64,000 nt of DNA from an uncultured Bacteroidales bacterium (GTDB lineage: Bacteria; Bacteroidota; Bacteroidia; Bacteroidales; Paludibacteraceae). Shown piece after piece: positions 25,149 to 63,732 of this stretch (within the stretch, counting starts at the first letter, position 1; the number at the start of each line of letters is the position of its first letter). A model generated the notes under the pieces. It ran no database searches, was not told where the DNA came from, and saw only the letters and a list, made by a program, of their open reading frames with translations. A program made the translations under genes and the position numbers. Where the stretch lies: NCBI GenBank assembly GCA_902798965.1, contig CADBYS010000009.1, positions 62,001 through 126,000 on the forward strand, read 5' to 3'.

Positions 25149-27605
25149 TCACTCCACTTTTACTCCGGTGGCACTGTATCGTGTGCCGTCGGGCAGGATG
25201 ATGAACAGGTTGGCATTCTCAATCACCTTATGCGGCACGAGTGCGTCGTCCGTCATCTCCACAGCCGTGACGATCTTCTCTTCCGGCGTGTAGGTAGCCT
25301 TATAGGTGGCAGCCTCGGTGGCCGCTACTATATCGGGTACCCACCCTGCAAACGAATAGGTGAAATGTTCATCCTCCTGTTTGCTCGGGTCAGCGGGCGG
25401 AGTAGGCATAGCATCCAGTGCCACTTGCGACTGCTGCAAGATCGTTATGCCGTCCTCATCGACAAAGGTGATGGTATAAGTCGGCCGATCCATGACGGTG
25501 AACGTCGTTTGTGCTTCGCTTCGGCAACCATGTTCGGTTGCTACCACATAGCGCAAACTATGCTCGCCGAGGCCTACACTGCCGGCACGGATAAACGTCG
25601 TCTGGCGTGTTGCGTCATCCAGGAAGAACTGTCCACCCGCAGGTGTAGCCATGCTGCCGAGTTGTACCACGCCGGCGTCGGTGTAGATGACTGCGGGAAC
25701 GTTCAGCTCGATCTCCGGCAAGGCGTAGATCACCATCACCGTCTCCTCGGAGGTGACAACAGGATTCAGCGCGCACGGGTTATCCGCCGTGAGACGAACA
25801 GCCACACGGTCGCTGTCGGCGAAGTTGCTGTAGGCGAATGTCGGGAGGTCGGTTGTGCCGATCACCTGACCGTTGCGCAGCCACTCGTAGGCGGGTGCAT
25901 CGCCGGCATTGGTTGCCGTAGCGGTGAGCGTCACTTCCGTGCCTTCACAAACGTTGTTACTGAGGCTGAGCGCCACTGTCGGGTTGACCGAACTGTGAAT
26001 AACCACTTCTTGCGCGAAGGAAGCCTCACAACCGTCGGGCGTGGTGAGCGTCAGCGTAATCGTGTAGTTGCCCGCCTCGGTGTATATGTGCGTAAAGCCG
26101 CCGGCAGAAGTGTAGTCTGTAACGCCGTCGCCGTTCATATCCCAAGCGTAGGCAGTCGTCTGATCCGTGTTGCTCGATTGGTCATCTATATATACAGTGC
26201 CACCTTGGCAGATGAAATCGCCATCGCCGAAGGCCTCGAACAGCGGAACAGGCGTCTTGCAAACCTCATGTTCAGCCAGGAAGCCCCACTTGCCATCCGC
26301 CTTGGCGCGGATATACAAGGTGTGCTTGCCAAGGGTGAGAGCGTTGGTGGAGAGCGGGTAGTTGCTGATGATTACCGAGTCGCCGACCTGCGAGAACGGG
26401 ATGTTGATCGGATTCTCGAAGTCATAATCCCAGTAAGCCTCCACGGCTTGAACGGTCATCTCGAATGTGGTGCTTGGCAGAACAAGGAAGGAGTGGGTGT
26501 AGGTTATCCCCCACGAGTTGCCTTGCTTGATACGCGCACCAAAGGTGTGCATACCAGACTCCAAGCCTTCGGTATTCACAGGTATAGTCAACTGCGTAGC
26601 GTCAGCAGCTATGCTCATGCTTGTGGCGTTACCACGTCCCGGGTCGGAATCAATCCAGTATTCTGCCCCACTGAGTGTAGTCACACCGCCAGATGGCAAA
26701 ATCAGGAAAGGATGGGTGTAAGTTTGTCCCCATGAGTCACCTTGCTTGATACGCGCGCCAAAGGTGTGCATCCCCGGCTCCAGACCTTCGGTATTCACGG
26801 GAATAGTCAACTGCGTAGTGTTAGCAGCGATGCTTACACTCGTAGCATTACCTCTGCCCGGGTCGGAATCAATCCAGTATTCTGCCCCACTGAGTGTAGT
26901 CACACCGCCGGTTGGCAAAATCAGGAAAGGATGGGTGTAGGTTTGTCCCCACGAGTTGCCTTGCTTGATACGTGCACCGAAGACGTGCATGCCAGGTTCC
27001 AGACCTTCGGTATTAACGGGAATAGTCAACTGCGTAGCGTCGGCAGCAAAGCTGACGCTTGAAGCATTGCCTCTACCAGGGTCGGCATCTATCCAATATT
27101 CCACCCCGCTAAGCGTTTTTTCGCCTCCGGATGGCAGAATCAGGAAAGGATGCGTGTAGGTCTGTCCCCATGAGTCGCCTTGTTTGATACGTGCACCGAA
27201 AGTATGCATACCCGGCTCCAAACTTTCGGTATTGACTGGTATAGTCAACTGCGTAGTGTTAGCAGCTATGCTCACGCTTGTGGCATTTCCTTTGCCAGGG
27301 TCGGCATCAATCCAATATTCCGCCCCGCTAAGCGCTGTCACGCCGCCGGATGGCAGGATTATGAATCGGTGGGTGTAGGTGTGACTCCATTTCCTACCGA
27401 CAGCCGCGCGCACGCCTAACACATGCATTCCCATGGGCAAAGTGGCAGTGGAGATGCTTGCTGTAGCATCTTCGCCTACTACCGTTATTGCTGCGCCTCG
27501 ACCATGTCCGGGATCGACGTCCAACCAATATTCCGCCCTTTGCGCCAATGACCACGCACTACAAACAAGCAACAACAGGAGACTATATATTCGAATTGTT
27601 TTCAT
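25149..27605 (-). CDS. Secreted repeat protein with PKD and InlB-like repeat domains
   Basis: 818-aa exported protein. After a signal peptide (MKTIRIYSLLLLLVCSAWSLAQ) come a divergent first repeat (24-94) and four 73-residue repeats (95-386), each starting (A/V)EYWID(A/S)DPG(K/R)GN and including GARIKQG.SWG. A degenerate sixth repeat, a PKD domain (~460-545, YAWDMNGDGVTDY), an Ig-like region and a Listeria-Bacteroides repeat domain (TYTITFVDEDG...FAGW) follow. The C-terminal tail VIENANLFIILPDGTRYS is shared with other secreted proteins here. Probable surface adhesin or matrix protein. It is downstream of a beta-helix protein and a CAP protein in one probable operon. Confidence 0.75.
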   Translation of the reverse strand: MKTIRIYSLLLLLVCSAWSLAQRAEYWLDVDPGHGRGAAITVVGEDATASISTATLPMGMHVLGVRAAVGRKWSHTYTHRFIILPSGGVTALSGAEYWIDADPGKGNATSVSIAANTTQLTIPVNTESLEPGMHTFGARIKQGDSWGQTYTHPFLILPSGGEKTLSGVEYWIDADPGRGNASSVSFAADATQLTIPVNTEGLEPGMHVFGARIKQGNSWGQTYTHPFLILPTGGVTTLSGAEYWIDSDPGRGNATSVSIAANTTQLTIPVNTEGLEPGMHTFGARIKQGDSWGQTYTHPFLILPSGGVTTLSGAEYWIDSDPGRGNATSMSIAADATQLTIPVNTEGLESGMHTFGARIKQGNSWGITYTHSFLVLPSTTFEMTVQAVEAYWDYDFENPINIPFSQVGDSVIISNYPLSTNALTLGKHTLYIRAKADGKWGFLAEHEVCKTPVPLFEAFGDGDFICQGGTVYIDDQSSNTDQTTAYAWDMNGDGVTDYTSAGGFTHIYTEAGNYTITLTLTTPDGCEASFAQEVVIHSSVNPTVALSLSNNVCEGTEVTLTATATNAGDAPAYEWLRNGQVIGTTDLPTFAYSNFADSDRVAVRLTADNPCALNPVVTSEETVMVIYALPEIELNVPAVIYTDAGVVQLGSMATPAGGQFFLDDATRQTTFIRAGSVGLGEHSLRYVVATEHGCRSEAQTTFTVMDRPTYTITFVDEDGITILQQSQVALDAMPTPPADPSKQEDEHFTYSFAGWVPDIVAATEAATYKATYTPEEKIVTAVEMTDDALVPHKVIENANLFIILPDGTRYSATGVKVE
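26448..27323. repeat. Four 219-bp tandem coding repeats
   Basis: The four 73-residue repeats are highly similar at the DNA level. The motif TG(C/T)TTGATACG recurs at 26524, 26743, 26962 and 27181, exactly 219 bp apart. Recent duplication or ongoing homogenisation is likely, and copy number may vary between strains. Confidence 0.9.
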
Positions 27606-56741: not shown

Positions 56742-57344
56742 ATGATTGACAGGAATATAGTCTTCGATTTTGGTGGGGTGCTTATGCAGCATAACCGTCC
56801 GGGTTGCCTGCAAGCCTTCCGGCAGTTGATGTCCGATGATGATATCAGCCATCTGCTTGGCTTGGGCAATGACAGCCGCGATACCCTCCGCTACCGATTT
56901 GAGGTCGGCGAGCTCAGCACGCGCTGTTTCATCGATTCGGTTCTCGGGCATTGCCGCACCGCTGCCACCGAACAGCAGATCATCGATGCTTGGAATACCA
57001 TCCACGCCGGTATTCCCGATACGGTGTGGACGCAAATCCGACAGCTGCGCAATAGAGGTTACCACCTCTACCTCATGTCCAATACCGACGAGCTGCACTG
57101 GGAGCACACCCTCGCGCAGTATCGCGAACCCATCGAGGAACTGTTCGAAGATATCTTCCTCTCCTTCCGCATCGGATGCGCCAAGCCTGACAAGCAGTTT
57201 TTCGAGACCGTTGACCGTGCTATTCATGCTGCCCCCGAGCCAACTCTTTTCGTGGATGACACCGAGGTCAACCGCCTTGCCGCACAGCAATCCGTCGGCT
57301 GGCAAACTTGTGCCACCGTCTCCGAACTAATGCAAAAAATTTAA
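56742..57344 (+). CDS. HAD family phosphatase
   Basis: 200 aa from the ATG at 56742 (MIDRNIVFDFGGVL); an earlier in-frame ATG adds only six residues. HAD motifs: I DFGGVL, II LMSNTDE, III KPDKQFF, IV LFVDDTEVN. Cap region helical. Similar to the subfamily of small sugar-phosphate or nucleotide phosphatases; substrate unknown. It starts in a stretch of alternating CG. Confidence 0.88.
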   Translation: MIDRNIVFDFGGVLMQHNRPGCLQAFRQLMSDDDISHLLGLGNDSRDTLRYRFEVGELSTRCFIDSVLGHCRTAATEQQIIDAWNTIHAGIPDTVWTQIRQLRNRGYHLYLMSNTDELHWEHTLAQYREPIEELFEDIFLSFRIGCAKPDKQFFETVDRAIHAAPEPTLFVDDTEVNRLAAQQSVGWQTCATVSELMQKI

Positions 57345-57353
57345 TTATAAGAT

Positions 57354-58628
57354 ATGGAAACTAACAATAAAAAACAGAGCGGAGCTTTCAGAGTGCTCGC
57401 GATTATTGCAGCAGTGCTGCTGGTATTCTCGACATGCCGACGGGAGGATGGGCATATGGTCTATCCCGTAGCGGAATGGGACAAGGCGGGCGAGATACTG
57501 ATGCATACGCCGTGGGAAGAATTGTTTGACGGTGTGGCACATCCTGCGGCGGGGTTGTTCGAAGGCTATTTCGATGTCGACGAGGCGGCTAAGGAACATC
57601 GCAACTATGCCCGTATGTTGCAGCGAAACGGCATCCACGTGCATTTTGTGACGGACGTGCTCTACGATACAGGAATAGACACCCTGCGTCTGCTGGCAGC
57701 CAAGGGGCTAAACTATGACATCAGCGATCTGCCTAATGCTGATCCTGATACGAACGAGGACTACAAGCAGTCGATCATCCGGCAGATGAGCCGTCTTGAC
57801 CTGATACGTTGTATTCTGCTTCGTCCGACAATCAAGTTGCATCCTACGGACAACAACACCGGCGTGGAAGCCGAGTATATCCACAGCCCGATGATGAACC
57901 TGTACTTCACCCGCGACCAGAGTATCACCACGCCGCGCGGACATATCATCTGCCGCATGAACTCATCCCAGCGCACTATGGAGACGGAGATTATCGAAGT
58001 GTGCTATCACCATCTGGGAGCATCGCCGATTTTGCGAATTGAGGGTGAAGGGCGACTCGAAGGCGGCGATTATATCCCTGCCGGAACGATTGCGTTTATC
58101 GGTTGCGGTATGCGCACGAACGACGAGGGTATCCGTCAGATCATGGCTGCCGATGCCTTCGGACACGATACGATCGTTGTGGTGCGTGACCATAAACGCT
58201 GGCAGATGCAGATGCATCTTGATACGCATTTTAATATCATCGACCGCGATCTGTGTACCATGGTGCGCAGCCGTCTGGAGGCACAGCCGGGGCAGCCGGA
58301 GTACAACACCTGCGATATCTACGTACGTGCTCAGGGGGAGAAGGATTACCGCTTATGGCAAAGCGAGTTGTCGTTTGTGGAGTTTGTGCGTTCACGAGGC
58401 ATGGAGATTATCCCTATCGACGAAGCGGACGAATTGCATTACGCCAATAATTTCCTAACTATCGCCCCGCGACATATCATGGCGGTAGGCGGTCAGAGCG
58501 AGACCTATCAGAAGCGATTGCAAGAAGCCGGCGTACACGTTGAGTGGATTCCGTTGGAGAGCCTGATAGACGGTTACGGCGCAGCACATTGCATGACGCA
58601 GGTACTGAAAAGAGAAAGATGCCTTTAA
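57354..58628 (+). CDS. Arginine-deiminase-family protein with N-terminal export signal
   Basis: 424 aa. Residues 11-28 form a hydrophobic segment ending FSTC, a weak lipobox, so the protein seems membrane-anchored or lipidated, unlike ordinary cytosolic arginine deiminase. The guanidino-group-modifying enzyme fold is supported by NLYFTRDQSITTPRG (182-196), EGGD (Glu236, Asp239), MHLDTHF (His288, Asp290) and the C-terminal nucleophile Cys413 in GYGAAHCMTQ. It may release ammonia and citrulline outside the cytoplasm or act on another guanidino compound. It starts 9 bp after the HAD gene. Confidence 0.8.
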   Translation: METNNKKQSGAFRVLAIIAAVLLVFSTCRREDGHMVYPVAEWDKAGEILMHTPWEELFDGVAHPAAGLFEGYFDVDEAAKEHRNYARMLQRNGIHVHFVTDVLYDTGIDTLRLLAAKGLNYDISDLPNADPDTNEDYKQSIIRQMSRLDLIRCILLRPTIKLHPTDNNTGVEAEYIHSPMMNLYFTRDQSITTPRGHIICRMNSSQRTMETEIIEVCYHHLGASPILRIEGEGRLEGGDYIPAGTIAFIGCGMRTNDEGIRQIMAADAFGHDTIVVVRDHKRWQMQMHLDTHFNIIDRDLCTMVRSRLEAQPGQPEYNTCDIYVRAQGEKDYRLWQSELSFVEFVRSRGMEIIPIDEADELHYANNFLTIAPRHIMAVGGQSETYQKRLQEAGVHVEWIPLESLIDGYGAAHCMTQVLKRERCL

Positions 58629-58663
58629 GCAAATCGAGTAAGGAACACACAAGAAGAAAAGAT

Positions 58664-59686
58664 ATGTCCAAACAACTGCAAATACGTAACTCAACAGCTG
58701 AGTTCCTGATCTTCCAAGCCGAAGACAAAGCCGAAGGCGTTCAAGTCTTCTACCAAGACGAGTCTATCTGGGCAACGCAAGAGGCGATTGCTACCCTTTT
58801 TGACAAAGGGCGTAGTACTATTACGGAGCATTTGAGAAACATCTTTGCCAGCGGTGAATTAGATCAAAATTCAGTATGTCGGAAAATCCGACACACTGCC
58901 GCAGATGGTAAGAATTATGACACACTATTCTACAACCTCGATGCTATCATCTCTGTCGGCTACCGCGTCAATTCGCGCCGCGCAACACAGTTCCGCCAAT
59001 GGTGTACAGCTGTGTTGCGTCAATTCGCAATCCGTGGCTATGTCATTGATCGCAAACGCATGGAGAACGGAGCATTCATCAGCGAGGATTACTTCGAATA
59101 CCTGCTTGAGGAGATACGCGAGATACGCTTGTCGGAGCGCCGATTCTATCAGAAGATCACCGACATCTATGCAACCGCCATCGACTATAATCCTGACGCG
59201 CCGACCACACGCGAGTTCTTCGCCAAAGTGCAGAACAAAATGCACTATGCCGTGCACGGACATACCGCTGCGGAACTTATTATCGAGCGTGCTGATGCCG
59301 ATAAGGAGCACATGGGTTTGACAACCTGGGAACATGCGCCCAAAGGTAAGATTCTCAAGCCCGACGTGAGTATCGCCAAGAACTACCTCAAAGAAAGCGA
59401 ACTGGAGTCCATGGGACGTATCGTCAACGGTTTTCTGGAGGTTGCCGAAGATATGGCGAAACGCCATATCCCGATGACTATGGAAGATTGGTCAAAGCGT
59501 ATCGACAAGTTCCTCGATACCACCGATCGTCCCATCCTCACCGATGCCGGACATGTCTCCGCTGAGCAAGCCAAGGAATATGCCGAAACGGAGTTCGAGA
59601 AATACCGCGTCATCCAAGACCGTATCTTTGAATCCGACTTCGACCGGTTTGAGTTACCCACACTACCATTTGACGAAGAGAAATAA
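58664..59686 (+). CDS. RhuM family protein
   Basis: 340 aa from the ATG at 58664 (MSKQLQIRNSTAEFLIFQ); the open frame reaches back to 58544 but overlaps the previous gene. The N-terminal third looks like a winged-helix DNA-binding module (IWATQEAIATLFDKGRSTIT). The conserved RhuM core follows (YNLDAIISVGYRVNSRRATQ, FRQWCTAVLRQFAIRGYVID). Members occur in pathogenicity islands and defence or mobile regions; function is not established. Four 33-bp repeats begin 2 bp after its stop, which makes it a candidate to bind them (inference). Confidence 0.85.
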   Translation: MSKQLQIRNSTAEFLIFQAEDKAEGVQVFYQDESIWATQEAIATLFDKGRSTITEHLRNIFASGELDQNSVCRKIRHTAADGKNYDTLFYNLDAIISVGYRVNSRRATQFRQWCTAVLRQFAIRGYVIDRKRMENGAFISEDYFEYLLEEIREIRLSERRFYQKITDIYATAIDYNPDAPTTREFFAKVQNKMHYAVHGHTAAELIIERADADKEHMGLTTWEHAPKGKILKPDVSIAKNYLKESELESMGRIVNGFLEVAEDMAKRHIPMTMEDWSKRIDKFLDTTDRPILTDAGHVSAEQAKEYAETEFEKYRVIQDRIFESDFDRFELPTLPFDEEK

Positions 59687-59687
59687 T

Positions 59688-59803
59688 TTGCGCTCAGGGA
59701 ACATATTGACTTTACAAAAATTGCGCTCAGGGAACATTTCGGCAGTTTGAAATTTGCGCTCAGGGAACATATTGACTTTACAAAAATTGCGCTCAGGGAA
59801 CAT
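59688..59803. repeat. Four 33-bp iterons upstream of the AAA ATPase promoter
   Basis: TTGCGCTCAGGGAACAT occurs perfectly at 59688, 59721, 59754 and 59787, exactly 33 bp apart. The three 16-bp intervals are ATTGACTTTACAAAAA, TTCGGCAGTTTGAAAT and again the first, so a 66-bp higher-order unit is visible. The last copy ends 13 bp before the -33 box of the ATPase promoter. A 33-bp period is about three helical turns, so bound proteins would sit on one DNA face. Confidence 0.95.
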
Positions 59804-59816
59804 TTTTGCAAAAATA

Positions 59817-59848
59817 TTTGCATAATTCATTTATTTTTAGTAACTTTG
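59817..59848 (+). promoter_or_regulatory. Promoter of the AAA/DUF4143 ATPase gene
   Basis: TTTG (59817-59820) and TAACTTTG (59841-59848), 20 bp apart, just downstream of the iterons. ATG at 59872. Confidence 0.8.
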
Positions 59849-59871
59849 CAGCGTATTTAAAAATAACAAAT

Positions 59872-61209
59872 ATGGCAGAGCATATTTTCAAGCGTAAAGC
59901 ATATCAAAAAATGCTGCAATGGAAGCAAGAATCGCAAGGCGAAACAGCCTTGTTGATTGAAGGAGCACGACGTGTCGGCAAATCCACTTTGGTGCGACTT
60001 TTTGCCAAGAATGAGTATAAGTCCTACGCTATCTTCGACTTCTCCAAAGCTTCGAAAGAAGAAAAAGCATTATTTGATGACCTGTCGGATATAGATTTCT
60101 TCTTTAATAGCCTACGTCTGCTAAAAGGAATCACGCTATATGAGCGAGACACCGCAATCGTATTCGACGAAGTGCAGAAATATCCAATAGCCCGCCAAGC
60201 TATAAAAGCTTTGGTAGAAGATGGTAGATACGACTACATAGAAACCGGTTCGTTAATAAGCATCCACAAGAATGTGGAGAAGATCATCATTCCTTCCGAA
60301 GAAGAAGTGCTTGAGATGCACCCGATGGATTATGAGGAGTTCCTGTGGGCAATGGGCGATGAGGGCAGTATGGATATACTGCGTGAGGCTTTCGAGAAGA
60401 AGCGCGGCTTTGGCGATGCAGTCAACCGCAAACTGATGCGCGACTTCCGGTTGTATATGCTCGTAGGCGGTATGCCACAAGCAGTGAGCAAGTATATCGA
60501 CACCAAGGATCTTGCGGCGGTTGACAAAGTCAAGCGAGCCATCATCCGTTTGTATTGCAACGATTTCCAAAAGATTGACCGCACCGGCAAAGCGATGGCT
60601 CTATTCATGGCTATTCCCGCCCAACTCGCGAATAACGCCAATCGTTATCAACCCTCTATGGTTATTGACAAGACGCGCACAGAACAACTGGCTGAACTAA
60701 TCTTCCTAATGGAGGACAGCAGGACTGTGAATGTGAGTTATCATGCCAATGACCCTAATGTGGGATTTGAACTGTCAACCAACCGCTCGGCATTTAAGAT
60801 GTTCTTGACAGATACCGGTTTGTTTGTGACTTTGGCATTTTGGGATAAAGACTTCACCGAAAATATCATTTATCAGAAACTGCTGAATGACAATCTCTCG
60901 GTAAACTTGGGCTATGTATATGAAAATATGGTAGCACAAATGTTGCGAGCTAACGGCAACAAGCTCTTCTATTTTACTTTCCCCGATGGCAACAAGCACA
61001 CGTATGAGGTGGATTTTCTGCTTTCGGAAGGCGCGAAGATTGTACCCATAGAGGTAAAATCAGAGGGCTACAACAAACATGCATCACTTGATGAATTCTG
61101 CAAAAAGTTCTCAGCACGCGTCGGGGCTAGGTATTTGATTTTTACCAAAGATTTGCGCAAAGAAGAACAGACTACGCTTGTTCCCGTATATATGACAAGC
61201 TTTCTTTAA
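59872..61209 (+). CDS. AAA ATPase with DUF4143 domain
   Basis: 445 aa from the ATG at 59872, the first ATG after the promoter. Walker A is GARRVGKSTL (31-40), Walker B is AIVFDEVQK (~103), sensor-like IETGSLIS (~125). The C-terminal DUF4143 region has the PD-(D/E)XK-like pattern EVDFLLSEGAKIVPIEVKSE (~380-400), characteristic of nuclease-fold domains. Such ATPases are abundant multi-copy genes in Bacteroidales with no settled role. The iteron array in its promoter suggests dedicated regulation. Confidence 0.88.
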   Translation: MAEHIFKRKAYQKMLQWKQESQGETALLIEGARRVGKSTLVRLFAKNEYKSYAIFDFSKASKEEKALFDDLSDIDFFFNSLRLLKGITLYERDTAIVFDEVQKYPIARQAIKALVEDGRYDYIETGSLISIHKNVEKIIIPSEEEVLEMHPMDYEEFLWAMGDEGSMDILREAFEKKRGFGDAVNRKLMRDFRLYMLVGGMPQAVSKYIDTKDLAAVDKVKRAIIRLYCNDFQKIDRTGKAMALFMAIPAQLANNANRYQPSMVIDKTRTEQLAELIFLMEDSRTVNVSYHANDPNVGFELSTNRSAFKMFLTDTGLFVTLAFWDKDFTENIIYQKLLNDNLSVNLGYVYENMVAQMLRANGNKLFYFTFPDGNKHTYEVDFLLSEGAKIVPIEVKSEGYNKHASLDEFCKKFSARVGARYLIFTKDLRKEEQTTLVPVYMTSFL

Positions 61210-61239
61210 GCGTCAAACTAAACTATTCCGGTTTTAATT

Positions 61240-61614
61240 ATGAAAACTCTCTCTCTGATAACAGCCCTGTTCTTGTGCCTCTCCGTCAGTGCGGCGGAGT
61301 ATGTCGGCTCCATGCGGATGGCAAGCGGTTATACCCTGGAGGATGTACGCGTAAGCATCGACGAGCAAGGTAATCTGACACTCTATCGGGTGAAGTTCGC
61401 CCGCATGATGCCCGTGCGCTTGGATGTGACGATCCCGCAACTGAGCTGCGACAACGAGCACCTGACCGGTGACAGCATCATCCCGCTCATAAGCGACAAA
61501 CCTAAACCCGACCGCATCATCACCAACCTACACGGCACAGCCGACAAGCAGTCAATCGACTTTACCTGCCTCATCGGCGGAAAAGAAATGCATTACACAG
61601 GGGTGGCAAAATAA
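61240..61614 (+). CDS. Calycin-like domain secreted protein
   Basis: 124 aa with signal peptide MKTLSLITALFLCLSVSA. The remaining ~105 residues form one beta-barrel-like domain (GNLTLYRVKFARMMPV, LHGTADKQSIDFTCLIGGKE) matching the calycin-like family of Bacteroidota. Ligand unknown. It lies 30 bp after the ATPase. Confidence 0.7.
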   Translation: MKTLSLITALFLCLSVSAAEYVGSMRMASGYTLEDVRVSIDEQGNLTLYRVKFARMMPVRLDVTIPQLSCDNEHLTGDSIIPLISDKPKPDRIITNLHGTADKQSIDFTCLIGGKEMHYTGVAK

Positions 61615-61646
61615 TTTCGGGGTATAACTAATGAATAGTTCACACT

Positions 61647-61808
61647 ATGACCAAGACAGAATTACAGATATTAAAAGCTATGCGTCGCGATCGCCGGGAA
61701 GAGGAGATTGCGATGCACGGGAAGCTTATCAGTTTCCGCCACACTATCGCCCGCTCCAAGAAACAATACACCCGCAAGAGCAAGCACAAGAGTCATTGGC
61801 ATGAATAA
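61647..61808 (+). CDS. Small basic protein, 53 aa
   Basis: Starts MTKTELQILKAMRRDRREEE and ends RKSKHKSHWHE. Rich in Lys, Arg and His (predicted strongly basic), no signal peptide or membrane segment, helix-prone N-terminal half. It lies 32 bp after the calycin-like gene in the same direction. Codon use looks like real coding sequence. The family is not recognised; nucleic-acid binding is possible from charge only. Confidence 0.55.
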   Translation: MTKTELQILKAMRRDRREEEIAMHGKLISFRHTIARSKKQYTRKSKHKSHWHE

Positions 61809-61884
61809 AGCCACCGAAAGGGTTTATTTTGGTACATGTTCTTACCTATCAAATGTATGTTTTTTGTCACCTTTTATAACAAAA

Positions 61885-61940
61885 AGGATATAATTCGTAA
61901 ATTTTTTGCCTTTTTAGGATATAATTCGTAAATTTTTGCA
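61885..61940. repeat. Two 31-bp-spaced direct repeats upstream of an orphan promoter
   Basis: AGGATATAATTCGTAAATTT recurs at 61885 and 61916 (31 bp apart). The second copy runs into TTTTTGCA and then a promoter, the same arrangement as the iterons at 59688 but with a different sequence. Confidence 0.85.
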
Positions 61941-61948
61941 CTTTTCTC

Positions 61949-61980
61949 TTGCATTTTTGATTTTTTTTTTCGTATCTTTG
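61949..61980 (+). promoter_or_regulatory. Promoter without a recognisable gene
   Basis: TTG (61949-61951) and TATCTTTG (61973-61980), 21 bp apart. The first ATG downstream (62066) opens only a 10-codon frame (MRRFMIFLLN, stop at 62096). Confidence 0.65.
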
Positions 61981-62206
61981 CAGTCGATTTTGTGCGAACC
62001 CTACAACAACAATAATTACTGATTAAAAACCCAAATAAATAAACAACAATAATTAATACTTATTTATGAGAAGATTTATGATTTTTTTGCTGAACTGATA
62101 AGCGTAAGCGATTGCCGATTTGCTAATTTTTTCCTTTCGTTTTGCAAGACGGGTATTGCACAAGTAGGATTTTGTGTACAACTTTGCGTAAATATCTTAA
62201 GGAAGT

Positions 62207-62237
62207 TTTGTTTTTTCGAAAAAAAATTGTAATTTTG
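62207..62237 (+). promoter_or_regulatory. Promoter of the long leader before the paralogous secreted genes
   Basis: TTTG (62207-62210) and TAATTTTG (62230-62237), 19 bp apart, about 550 bp before the next real start codon at 62788. Confidence 0.6.
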
Positions 62238-62787
62238 CGCAATTTAAAAATATCAATTGCACTGCTGCTAAGGTATTTTTAATTAAATTTGAATTTTCTT
62301 ATTGAGAAGTATTATCACTTAGCTGACGGTTGCCGTTGGCAGCTGAAAACATAGTGCGTTACCTACGTACGTTAATCGTAGGAGGAATCTTTCTACGCCG
62401 ATACAATCTCCGCCATTCGGAGGTAAGATTGCAGAGGGAGGGAGGGTTCATAACATATTAAAATAGCGTTTATTGGCGCTTTGTATTTGACAAACCGGAA
62501 CTTCGCAACTTTCGTTATAAAAGTCAAAATCAAAGTAGCAGTAGATGCCTATGGGTGTGACAACTACACCATTTTTGTCGTTCTCGGCAAAACGGTTTGT
62601 CATATCGGCGTAGGTTTCCTGTTGTTTATTTGACTTTTAGGGCAATGCGAAGGCCTCGGTTTGTAAATAAGCAACTCGAGGTCTACGCTTTCTGTATATA
62701 TATACCTTTAGCGAATTGATCCTTAACAAGTTTGATTGATGTAACGGGTTGATGTATGTGTTTATGAATAACTTAACGAACGAATAT
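62238..62787 (+). ncRNA. Long structured non-coding leader (candidate)
   Basis: About 550 bp without a credible ORF. Successive hairpins: AGCTG/CAGCT (62321-62344, with inner GG/CC), CCTACG/CGTAGG (62362-62382), CTCCG/CGGAG (62408-62422). Longer pairs are TGACAAACCG (62488-62497) with CGGTTTGTCA (62593-62602) and AAAAGTCAAA (62519-62528) with TTTGACTTTT (62629-62638), which interleave. It does not match a riboswitch class I can recognise. Confidence 0.45.
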
Positions 62788-63732
62788 ATGAGAAAATCAG
62801 TTTTTACACTTTGTCTTCTTTTGGTGTGGAGTATGGCTGTGCTGGCGGACGATCCTGTTGAATCGACGTCTTCGGCTACCATTACGTTTTTCCGAACGCC
62901 GTCTTCGCTTTTGCCGGGCAAGTTTGCGGTAGCTGCCGGCGATACGGTGCAATTTGCGCGGGGCAATCTACAATATCTTGCCTCACGGAATATCTGGCGT
63001 TTTGCTGAACATCAGTACGATATGATTGGTAATGCAGCAGGTAATACAACAAGAGCACTTGACAGACCAACGCAAGGTTACTGGATTGATTTGTTCGGTT
63101 GGGGAACAAGTGGATGGAATAGTGGTGCTGCGGCATATCAACCTTGGGCTGTTTCTACAACTAATACCGATTATTGTCCGTCGATGTCTCCCGGAACTAA
63201 CTGGTCACAGAGTGATGCAACGCAAAATTGCGATTGGGGCGTATACATCTTTTCATCAGGATTGGATGCCGGCTACTGTGTTTTGACCGCCAATGAATGG
63301 GAATATATACTTTCTGGCCGAACAAATCATGCAAATCTGATGGGAATGGGAACACTTTATGGAGTACATGGATTTTACTTGTTGCCCGATGGCTGGGATT
63401 GGTCAAAGGTGAATGCTGAAAAAACGGCTGCAAGTTTTACTTGGACCAGTAGTTCAAATGCTTACTCTAACAATGTCATAAGAAACAACACAGAAGGACG
63501 TGCTCTTTGGGATGCTATGGAAGCAAAAGGAGCCGTTTTCCTTCCGGCTGCCGGATATAGAAATGGGACTGAAGTCACGCTTGAGACACTATATTATGCA
63601 ACTTCTACGATGGGAAGTTCATCAGATTATTGTGCTTCTTTTGAAGTAACAAAGAATGGCGGTTTAATAAGGATGTGTTATGAATGTCGTCGTCTTATTG
63701 GTCGTTCGGTACGTCTGACTCGCCATTTATAA
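62788..63732 (+). CDS. Secreted GNLQY-type (FISUMP/C-type-lectin-like) protein
   Basis: 314 aa from the ATG at 62788, chosen because it begins a signal peptide (MRKSVFTLCLLLVWSMAVLA); a frame start at 62749 is less likely. The body shows the pattern VQFARGNLQYLASRNIWRFA, EHQYDMIGNA, WIDLFGWGTSGW, LTANEWEYIL, GFYLLPDGWDW and the C-terminal RLIGRSVRLTRHL, seen in multi-copy secreted proteins of Bacteroidales with a C-type-lectin-like fold. Function unknown, possibly surface binding. A paralogue follows 27 bp downstream. Confidence 0.75.
   Translation: MRKSVFTLCLLLVWSMAVLADDPVESTSSATITFFRTPSSLLPGKFAVAAGDTVQFARGNLQYLASRNIWRFAEHQYDMIGNAAGNTTRALDRPTQGYWIDLFGWGTSGWNSGAAAYQPWAVSTTNTDYCPSMSPGTNWSQSDATQNCDWGVYIFSSGLDAGYCVLTANEWEYILSGRTNHANLMGMGTLYGVHGFYLLPDGWDWSKVNAEKTAASFTWTSSSNAYSNNVIRNNTEGRALWDAMEAKGAVFLPAAGYRNGTEVTLETLYYATSTMGSSSDYCASFEVTKNGGLIRMCYECRRLIGRSVRLTRHL

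Follow-up and report, generated by a model that had tools for sequence, protein, structure and literature searches.

Autoregulation through operator repeats is a known kind of control. Plasmid iterons are phased direct repeats that lie by the gene of the Rep protein that binds them, and that gene is autoregulated. Archaeal Orc1/Cdc6 proteins bind repeated origin sites, act at origins and carry no nuclease domain, and both I-TevI-type homing endonucleases and the controller proteins of restriction-modification systems keep their own gene low through an operator at its promoter. Here we analyze a locus in a 64,000-nucleotide stretch of DNA from an uncultured Bacteroidales bacterium (contig CADBYS010000009.1, positions 62,001 to 126,000; hereafter the window), in which four perfect repeats lie upstream of the gene of an AAA_14-DUF4143 ATPase. 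Judging from sequence comparisons, these repeats are probably the private operator of the adjoining ATPase, which would itself read them and so control its own promoter.

The ATPase matches the PDC-S01 models of PADLOC over almost its full length (E 4.4e-99). PDC-S01, an ATPase fused to a PD-(D/E)XK domain, has been described as the fourth most common defense across prokaryotes, with 29,494 bacterial and 9,986 archaeal systems (PMC12988326), and as the most frequent individual locus in rumen genomes, with 10,358 occurrences (PMC13356809). Validation is described as pending for most PDCs, and the word "promoter" is absent from the text of that first survey (PMC12988326); PMC4406477 has a single mention of DUF4143, in a table. 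Among open-licence PubMed Central papers, a body of literature that leaves preprints and most subscription papers outside, we found no published account of repeats at these genes.

Results

Four phased repeats adjoin the promoter of the ATPase gene

The elements of the locus are as follows.

59688..59704, + strand: repeat copy 1, a perfect match to the 17-mer (core TGCGCTCAGGGAACA)
59721..59737, + strand: repeat copy 2, perfect match
59754..59770, + strand: repeat copy 3, perfect match
59787..59803, + strand: repeat copy 4, perfect match, closest to the promoter
59817..59848, + strand: predicted Bacteroidota-type ATPase promoter (TTTG, 20 base pairs (bp), TAACTTTG), read from the sequence
59872..61209, + strand: AAA_14-DUF4143 ATPase, 445 amino acids, PADLOC PDC-S01 (Pfam, PADLOC, AlphaFold2)

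The 17-mer TTGCGCTCAGGGAACAT occurs four times without a mismatch on the plus strand (starts 59688, 59721, 59754 and 59787) at a spacing of exactly 33 bp, and the array sits between a RhuM gene (58664-59686) and the ATPase gene (59872-61209), immediately 5' of the ATPase promoter, just as the first-pass annotation had stated. Tandem Repeats Finder calls the array at 59688-59803. When up to three mismatches were allowed, these four sites were the only matches in the window, compared with a mean of 0.24 and a maximum of 2 in 100 shuffles. With up to two mismatches, the whole 2.85-Mb assembly (51 contigs, ~90% complete) held only the four array copies and no match to a reversed-pattern control, so the repeats are not scattered over the genome, an outcome that would have counted against the first-pass reading. 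Units 1 and 3 have a spacer in common, and the array thus looks like a doubled 66-bp dimer that grew by duplication. Downstream of the repeats lie the two promoter boxes, TTTG at 59817-59820 and TAACTTTG at 59841-59848, which we take to be a promoter of the Bacteroidota type from its consensus; the same layout adjoins the repeats in many relatives. A minus-strand open reading frame (ORF) at 59663-59830 reads through the units and repeats the peptide MFPERNF. It is open because 33 bp make eleven codons, and it runs the risk of being wrongly annotated as a protein.

Repeat spacing is set by ATPase clade

The genome has 19 DUF4143 matches, 17 of them over the curated cut-off, and a reading of their promoters found that many carry short repeats of their own that differ from gene to gene. 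We fetched 68 DUF4143 loci (these 19, 29 more from the genus and 20 mostly from two genomes), 66 of which were parsable, and compared the 230-330 bp upstream of each gene with 252 control genes from 400 kb of the same genome. The best self-match shift fell at 22, 23, 32, 33, 46, 64, 65 or 66 bp in 41 of the 66 loci versus 14 of the 252 controls (Fisher p 1.5e-22). Self-match scores of at least 10 were found at shifts of 23, 32, 33, 46 and 66 bp in 9, 13, 16, 5 and 10 DUF4143 loci and in 2, 6, 1, 0 and 1 controls, respectively, and at none of the shifts from 24 to 31 bp in the DUF4143 loci. On a tree of 102 ATPase rows, 60 of which have a spacing label (22, 23, 32 or 33), spacing changes 11 times, compared with a mean of 28.6 and a minimum of 23 in 200 shuffles of the labels. 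Array spacing (23, 32 or 33 bp) is therefore set by the ATPase clade, and the repeat sequence follows the gene.

Two clades were sampled more deeply. For the window's clade we took the 80 best of at least 468 loci in named genomes, together with 16 loci of viral contigs, and obtained 95 usable upstream regions, some of them near-identical; the best shift was 33 bp in 69, 66 bp in 8, another value in 5 and below threshold in 13, placing 77/95 at 33 or 66 bp. In register, the 33-bp unit consists of an A-rich anchor (AAANATTT) and a core of ~15 bp, and the core differs between proteins of the clade that are ~60% identical. A second clade, marked by the Walker motif GPKWCGK, comprises 60 ATPases, and for 59 of them the upstream sequence was long enough; here the best shift was 23 bp in 51, 46 bp in 4, 22 bp in 1 and none in 3, so that 55/59 lie at 23 or 46 bp. 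Iterons are thus present beside homologues. Phasing by three helical turns, as the first-pass annotation proposed, fits the window's clade at 33 bp but does not extend to the clades spaced at 23 or 32 bp. One locus of the 23-bp clade (L047) has seven exact copies of its repeat core in the 230 bp upstream, which indicates that copy number varies widely; copy number may tune expression.

At the scale of the phylum, where the 29 best-scoring loci were fetched and 26 were parsable, 7 have a best shift of 22 or 32 bp with a score of at least 10. Among 11 plasmid relatives chosen by hand from 59 records, 9 have repeats scoring at least 10 at 32, 33 or 66 bp, and these come from Bacteroidota, Bacillota (Agathobacter, Vescimonas), Actinomycetota (Collinsella) and Pseudomonadota; in the Vescimonas relative a 42-bp shift outscores the repeat at those spacings.

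Other ATPase families of the genome were inspected alongside. AAA-ATPase_like (PF09820) has two genes in it, neither of them parsable, and PF01637 eight matches, five of them parsable and one of these five (L166) doubtful. Two PF01637-type genes on contig 2 (L159 and L160) have promoter repeats of another design, spaced at 53 and 52 bp, whose units look like inverted repeats, and the intergenic region of L159 is apparently common to it and a divergent DUF4143 gene (L011). Of two further PF01637 genes, L161 has a 21-bp-spaced repeat (score 14.5) and L162 has none.

The ATPase is predicted to carry two candidate DNA-reading elements

Both Pfam matches of the protein, AAA_14 (E 2e-22) and DUF4143 (E 2.5e-17), lie above the curated cut-offs. 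An AlphaFold2 model built with 71 sequences (mean predicted local distance difference test (pLDDT) score 88) has an ATPase domain, and helices at residues 240-246, 248-253, 261-264 and 270-282 with strands at 286-292 and 303-312, which in our reading of the model form a winged helix; model confidence is low across residues 251-270 (block pLDDT 58-65). The model also has a nuclease-like sheet, in which strands 365-371 and 377-386 are joined by a turn of residues 372-376, next to E379 and D381. These elements map to the window as follows.

60589..60807, + strand: putative winged-helix region, residues 240-312 (model; residue 272 covaries with core base 20)
60985..60999, + strand: beta-hairpin turn, residues 372-376 (model; covaries with core bases 9-11)
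61006..61059, + strand: PD-(D/E)XK-like active site, E379, D381, E394 and K396 (identical in 99/99 aligned rows)

The Walker residues G31, G36, K37, D99 and E100 are likewise identical in 99/99 aligned rows, a count that for both sets includes near-duplicates, and we take the four nuclease residues to be a PD-(D/E)XK motif. Among the top solved structures found by Foldseek are DNA-bound Orc1/Cdc6 proteins and STAND ATPases, with TM-scores of ~0.3; a sequence search for solved relatives returned none at E up to 1.

Residues of the ATPase covary with bases of its repeats

For the window's clade we aligned 97 rows in register; self-consistency and length filters took out 12, and removal of near-identical proteins left 67. 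The residue/base pairs with the highest mutual information were 372/10, 272/20, 77/10, 375/11 and 343/21. At residue 372, D goes with C at base 10 in 12/12 rows, K with G in 15/16 and T with A in 12/17; at residue 375, T goes with T at base 11 in 8/8 and K, N or R with G in 57/58; and R at residue 272 goes with C at base 20 in 20/20.

Shared ancestry was modelled by 150 simulations of base evolution along a tree built without these regions. Against this null the z scores were 7.4 for 372 with base 10, 8.9 for 375 with base 11, 6.8 for 264 with base 19, and 6.9 and 7.0 for 272 and 241 with base 20. None of the 150 simulations reached the observed values for the residue/base pairs 372/10, 77/10, 375/11, 416/11, 264/19, 241/20 and 272/20; residues 245 and 376 with base 9 and 263 with base 12 were weaker. 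A z of at least 5 was reached by 11 pairs, and eight of these fall within the winged helix or hairpin, two regions that make up 59 of the 285 tested columns (binomial p 3e-4, with the two regions drawn after the mutual-information ranking was known). In 23 control columns from spacer, anchor and promoter, residues 241, 263, 264, 269, 272 and 372-376 never scored above 3.4.

Counts of tree-independent pairs, few and in no test significant, point the same way for the hairpin and for residue 272. The mean numbers of same versus opposite pairs were 1.8/0.0 for K372-G, 3.0/0.1 for T372-A, 0.7/0.0 for D372-C, 2.0/0.0 for T375-T and 2.4/0.0 for R272-C, and these pairs thus go the expected way almost always, which those of 241 and 264 do not. 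Residues 263, 264 and 241 pair less securely with bases 12, 19 and 20.

Rows left out of the fit, whose bases were partly read by eye, mostly obey the same rule. G accompanies K372 in L062 (with its near-copy L076), L211, L226, L269 and L273, and the last two of these also pair T375 with T. T372 has its A in L221 and L281, but L275 and L053 are exceptions. R372 occurs with G in L234, and L272 pairs Y372 with T only after a one-base register shift. The L053 ATPase has a different winged helix and carries another repeat, TGCGATTTTACGCAT, by its own promoter; this repeat is also found in L208 and L267, relatives with nearly the same winged helix as L053. Across 47 rows of the 23-bp clade, base 10 covaries best with residue 252, again with D-C and K-G pairs (z 4.7, familywise 0.04), and we read this residue as the start of the recognition helix.

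Repeats are private to their genes in the regions searched, and the genes seem to turn over

For 13 promoters of the genome we took a repeat block of at least 11 bases and scanned the other 17 ATPase promoters, where no copies were found; a fourteenth block, from L017, is a 9-mer and too short for a verdict, and the remaining four promoters yielded none. Over 464 kb of the genome, these blocks were likewise absent, apart from counts of 1 and 5 for two of them and the window's own 4. A Segatella copri ATPase (L206) has its repeat at its own promoter only. The sites are thus specific to the gene's own promoter in the parts searched, which were the whole assembly for the repeats of the window and of L206, and 464 kb and 18 promoters for the paralogues. 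A wider regulon was considered and rejected, no other motif site having been found in the assembly of the window or, for the L206 repeat, in the S. copri genome.

In the family the 17-mer, with at most one mismatch, was found in 25 of 358 genomes. Every one of these belongs to the same genus, out of 33 in the family, and the reversed-pattern control gave 0. Three of the 25 (L057, L058 and L070) look like chance single matches and were set aside. In nine of the remaining 22, the window's genome included, an intact ATPase gene has the repeats at its promoter. The proteins of the eight relatives are 76-94% identical to that of the window. The repeats number one to four copies with differing spacers at a spacing of 33 bp, except for one of 34 in each of the related loci L063 and L065.

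The other 13 genomes lack an intact cognate ATPase, one of them (L068) through an internal deletion. Eight of the 13 have a different ATPase on the same strand within 1.5 kb downstream (6 independent cases, three near-identical rows being counted once), L075 has one on the opposite strand, and in three none was found. At a chance of 1-3% per site, a rate estimated by hand, 6 replacements in 11 have p values of 4e-10 to 3e-7. In L072, L071 and L067 the different ATPase gene lies behind the old ATPase's repeats and promoter; the replacement in L072 has repeats of its own spaced at 22 bp and, by eye, no second promoter, as if it used the captured one. Two genomes differ in the ATPase, present in G111 and missing from G101, and G101 has kept the repeats and promoter alongside a common upstream gene. 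Flanking genes mostly differ between species, with clear common flanks in G135/G141 and G162/G001, and some gene families recur in other flanks. Turnover of the ATPase looks mobile, and repeats, promoter and ATPase seem to travel together.

Other features of the window

58664..59686, + strand: RhuM family gene (PF13310, E 1.1e-109), a chance neighbor and not a part of the system
61885..61945, + strand: orphan repeat pair at 31-bp spacing (GGATATAATTCGTAAATTTTT) with its own promoter-like sequence and no ATPase 3' of it (sequence)

PADLOC models of two defense candidates, PDC-S05 and PDC-S01, match the RhuM protein and the ATPase, respectively. The orphan pair is possibly the relic of a lost ATPase gene; a search for its origin gave two matches in relatives of the genus, both of them chance matches in coding sequence. 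Elsewhere in the window, positions 26488-27380 hold a 219-bp tandem repeat of ~4 copies with 83% matches.

Discussion

The covariation between repeat bases and ATPase residues makes the ATPase itself the most likely reader of its own promoter, and direct binding of the protein to its repeats is, from comparative evidence, likely. The view of the first-pass annotation that the repeats resemble operators through which the ATPase is controlled is supported. Its idea of an undescribed regulated defense or mobile-element system may also hold, the ATPase being a defense candidate (PDC-S01) with a turnover that looks mobile. In the scheme we favor, bases 9-11 in the first part of the core would be read by the hairpin turn that adjoins the nuclease site, and bases 19-20 in the second part, about one helical turn further on, by the winged helix; given this distance, one protein could touch both through its two elements. 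Several copies of the ATPase would then bind in phase along the array and switch their own promoter, most likely off. We favor autorepression over activation with reasonable but not strong confidence, and lean a little less firmly towards oligomeric binding along the array. Paralogues have repeat sequences of their own, and because these differ, the 19 DUF4143 genes of the genome need not cross-regulate.

Several observations weigh against this interpretation. A repeat of score 10 at some shift is found in 78 of the 252 controls, mostly at other shifts, and in 48 of the 66 ATPase loci. No spacing label could be given to 42 of the 102 ATPases, including nearly all of the highest-scoring DUF4143 clade (16 of the 17 rows checked), and among the 11 plasmid relatives those of Fusobacterium and Ruminococcus albus have no repeats. 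Residues 77 and 416, which lie outside both elements, also score high, and 4 of the 23 control columns gave some other residue at a familywise level of at most 0.01, so the simulated null errs on the lenient side. Each test had only 3-7 tree-independent pairs, and no test reached significance; the pairs divide 0.7/0.6 for C with D, N or S at 372, 1.2/0.8 for V264-G and 0.7/1.4 for A241-C, which leaves residues 241 and 264 to the simulation. In the 23-bp clade the support comes only from the winged-helix residue 252. The hairpin residue 344 is suggestive but falls short of significance, and at other bases equal or higher scores go to residues 46, 130 and 281.

The position of the arrays bears on the direction of control. 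Among 88 loci of the window's clade, 31 arrays lie upstream of the -33 box, ending at a median of 13 bp before it, and 35 span the promoter; among 59 loci of the 23-bp clade, 35 lie upstream (median 14 bp), 3 span the promoter and 3 are downstream, the remaining rows having no promoter match, no repeat or other positions. An end at 13-14 bp before the -33 box is a usual place for an activator, so the upstream arrays also suit a protein that activates its own promoter, and activation from them is possible. A positive feedback switch of this kind nevertheless seems to us unlikely, if worth keeping in mind. Activators are not expected at arrays lying wholly between the -7 box and the gene, as they do in 8 of the 17 loci of spacing label 32 and 8 of the 27 of label 33 in the genus and phylum set, nor do the promoter-spanning arrays of the window's clade favor one. 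Autorepression by bound ATPase is one mechanism that by itself fits arrays upstream of, across and downstream of the promoter.

A second alternative is that the repeats are the nuclease's own target, such that a self-recognizing, competing mobile gene cuts or displaces its like at the same or neighboring addresses, with autoregulation a by-product of self-targeting. Homing endonucleases that repress their own promoters offer a parallel. The invariance of the nuclease and ATPase residues, the base-reading hairpin that adjoins the active site in the model, the arrival of different ATPases at old addresses and the differing flanks all speak for it, but cutting its own promoter would be costly for a nuclease, and replacement may simply mark sites where genes turn over often. 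We saw no ends, target duplications or recombinase, though none was searched for systematically. Phage target sites were tried as a candidate and rejected, the exact 33-bp doublet being absent from the viral contig collection. We consider self-targeting doubtful. More speculatively, PDC-S01 ATPase-nucleases could be self-addressed genes, each reading a private address at its promoter by a simple amino-acid-to-base code through both the winged helix and the nuclease domain, and the address could tell self from other when such genes compete; we give this a small chance. Such a scheme would explain the rule of one gene and one repeat, why a genome can hold up to 30 DUF4143 genes, and how one ATPase comes to replace another at the same address. 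If it were true, one of the commonest "defense" genes would be a self-recognizing competitive element whose address a few residues can change.

Neutral tandem repeats, or a coding, RNA or CRISPR-like feature, are very improbable. Growth of the array by duplication and the minus-strand ORF would suit them. The core, however, is kept while spacers differ among species with 76-94% identical ATPases, no Rfam match lies within 57000-63000, and controls rarely have these spacings; a coding repeat was rejected because 33 bp keeps the minus-strand frame open but 23 and 32 bp, not being multiples of 3, do not, and it thus does not explain the pattern. Finally, the proposal of the first-pass annotation that RhuM, repeats and ATPase form one unit, with RhuM binding the repeats and controlling the ATPase, draws on a RhuM gene that ends 1 bp before the first 17-mer and is barely credible, since tblastn found RhuM in no motif locus searched except the window, 0 of 18 other RhuM loci have a DUF4143 ATPase gene within ~1.5 kb, and it is ATPase residues that covary with the repeat bases; RhuM is a chance neighbor outside the ATPase-repeat system.

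If the ATPase does read its own promoter, thousands of ATPases would each come with a DNA ligand, a residue-to-base rule and a promoter to assay. This would give a direct handle on the function of the PDC-S01 gene family, whose job would become testable.

Set beside the described systems, the locus resembles each in part. Like plasmid iterons, the window's repeats are phased, direct and beside the gene of their putative binder, but they lie on a 134-kb contig, in a genome with 19 DUF4143 genes whose repeats differ. The likeness to Orc1/Cdc6 is structural (2v1u at E 8.8e-6 and 2qby at E 5.9e-5, both crystallized with DNA, Foldseek probability 1.00), though with low TM-scores of 0.28-0.31 by query length, and the sites of the window's ATPase are at the gene's own promoter. 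Unlike the genes of I-TevI-type endonucleases and controller proteins, this one has no visible intron or methylase partner, and its arrays have clade-specific spacing. A large nuclease family in which each member has its own repeat, with clade-specific spacing and a readable match of residue to base, has to our knowledge not been described.

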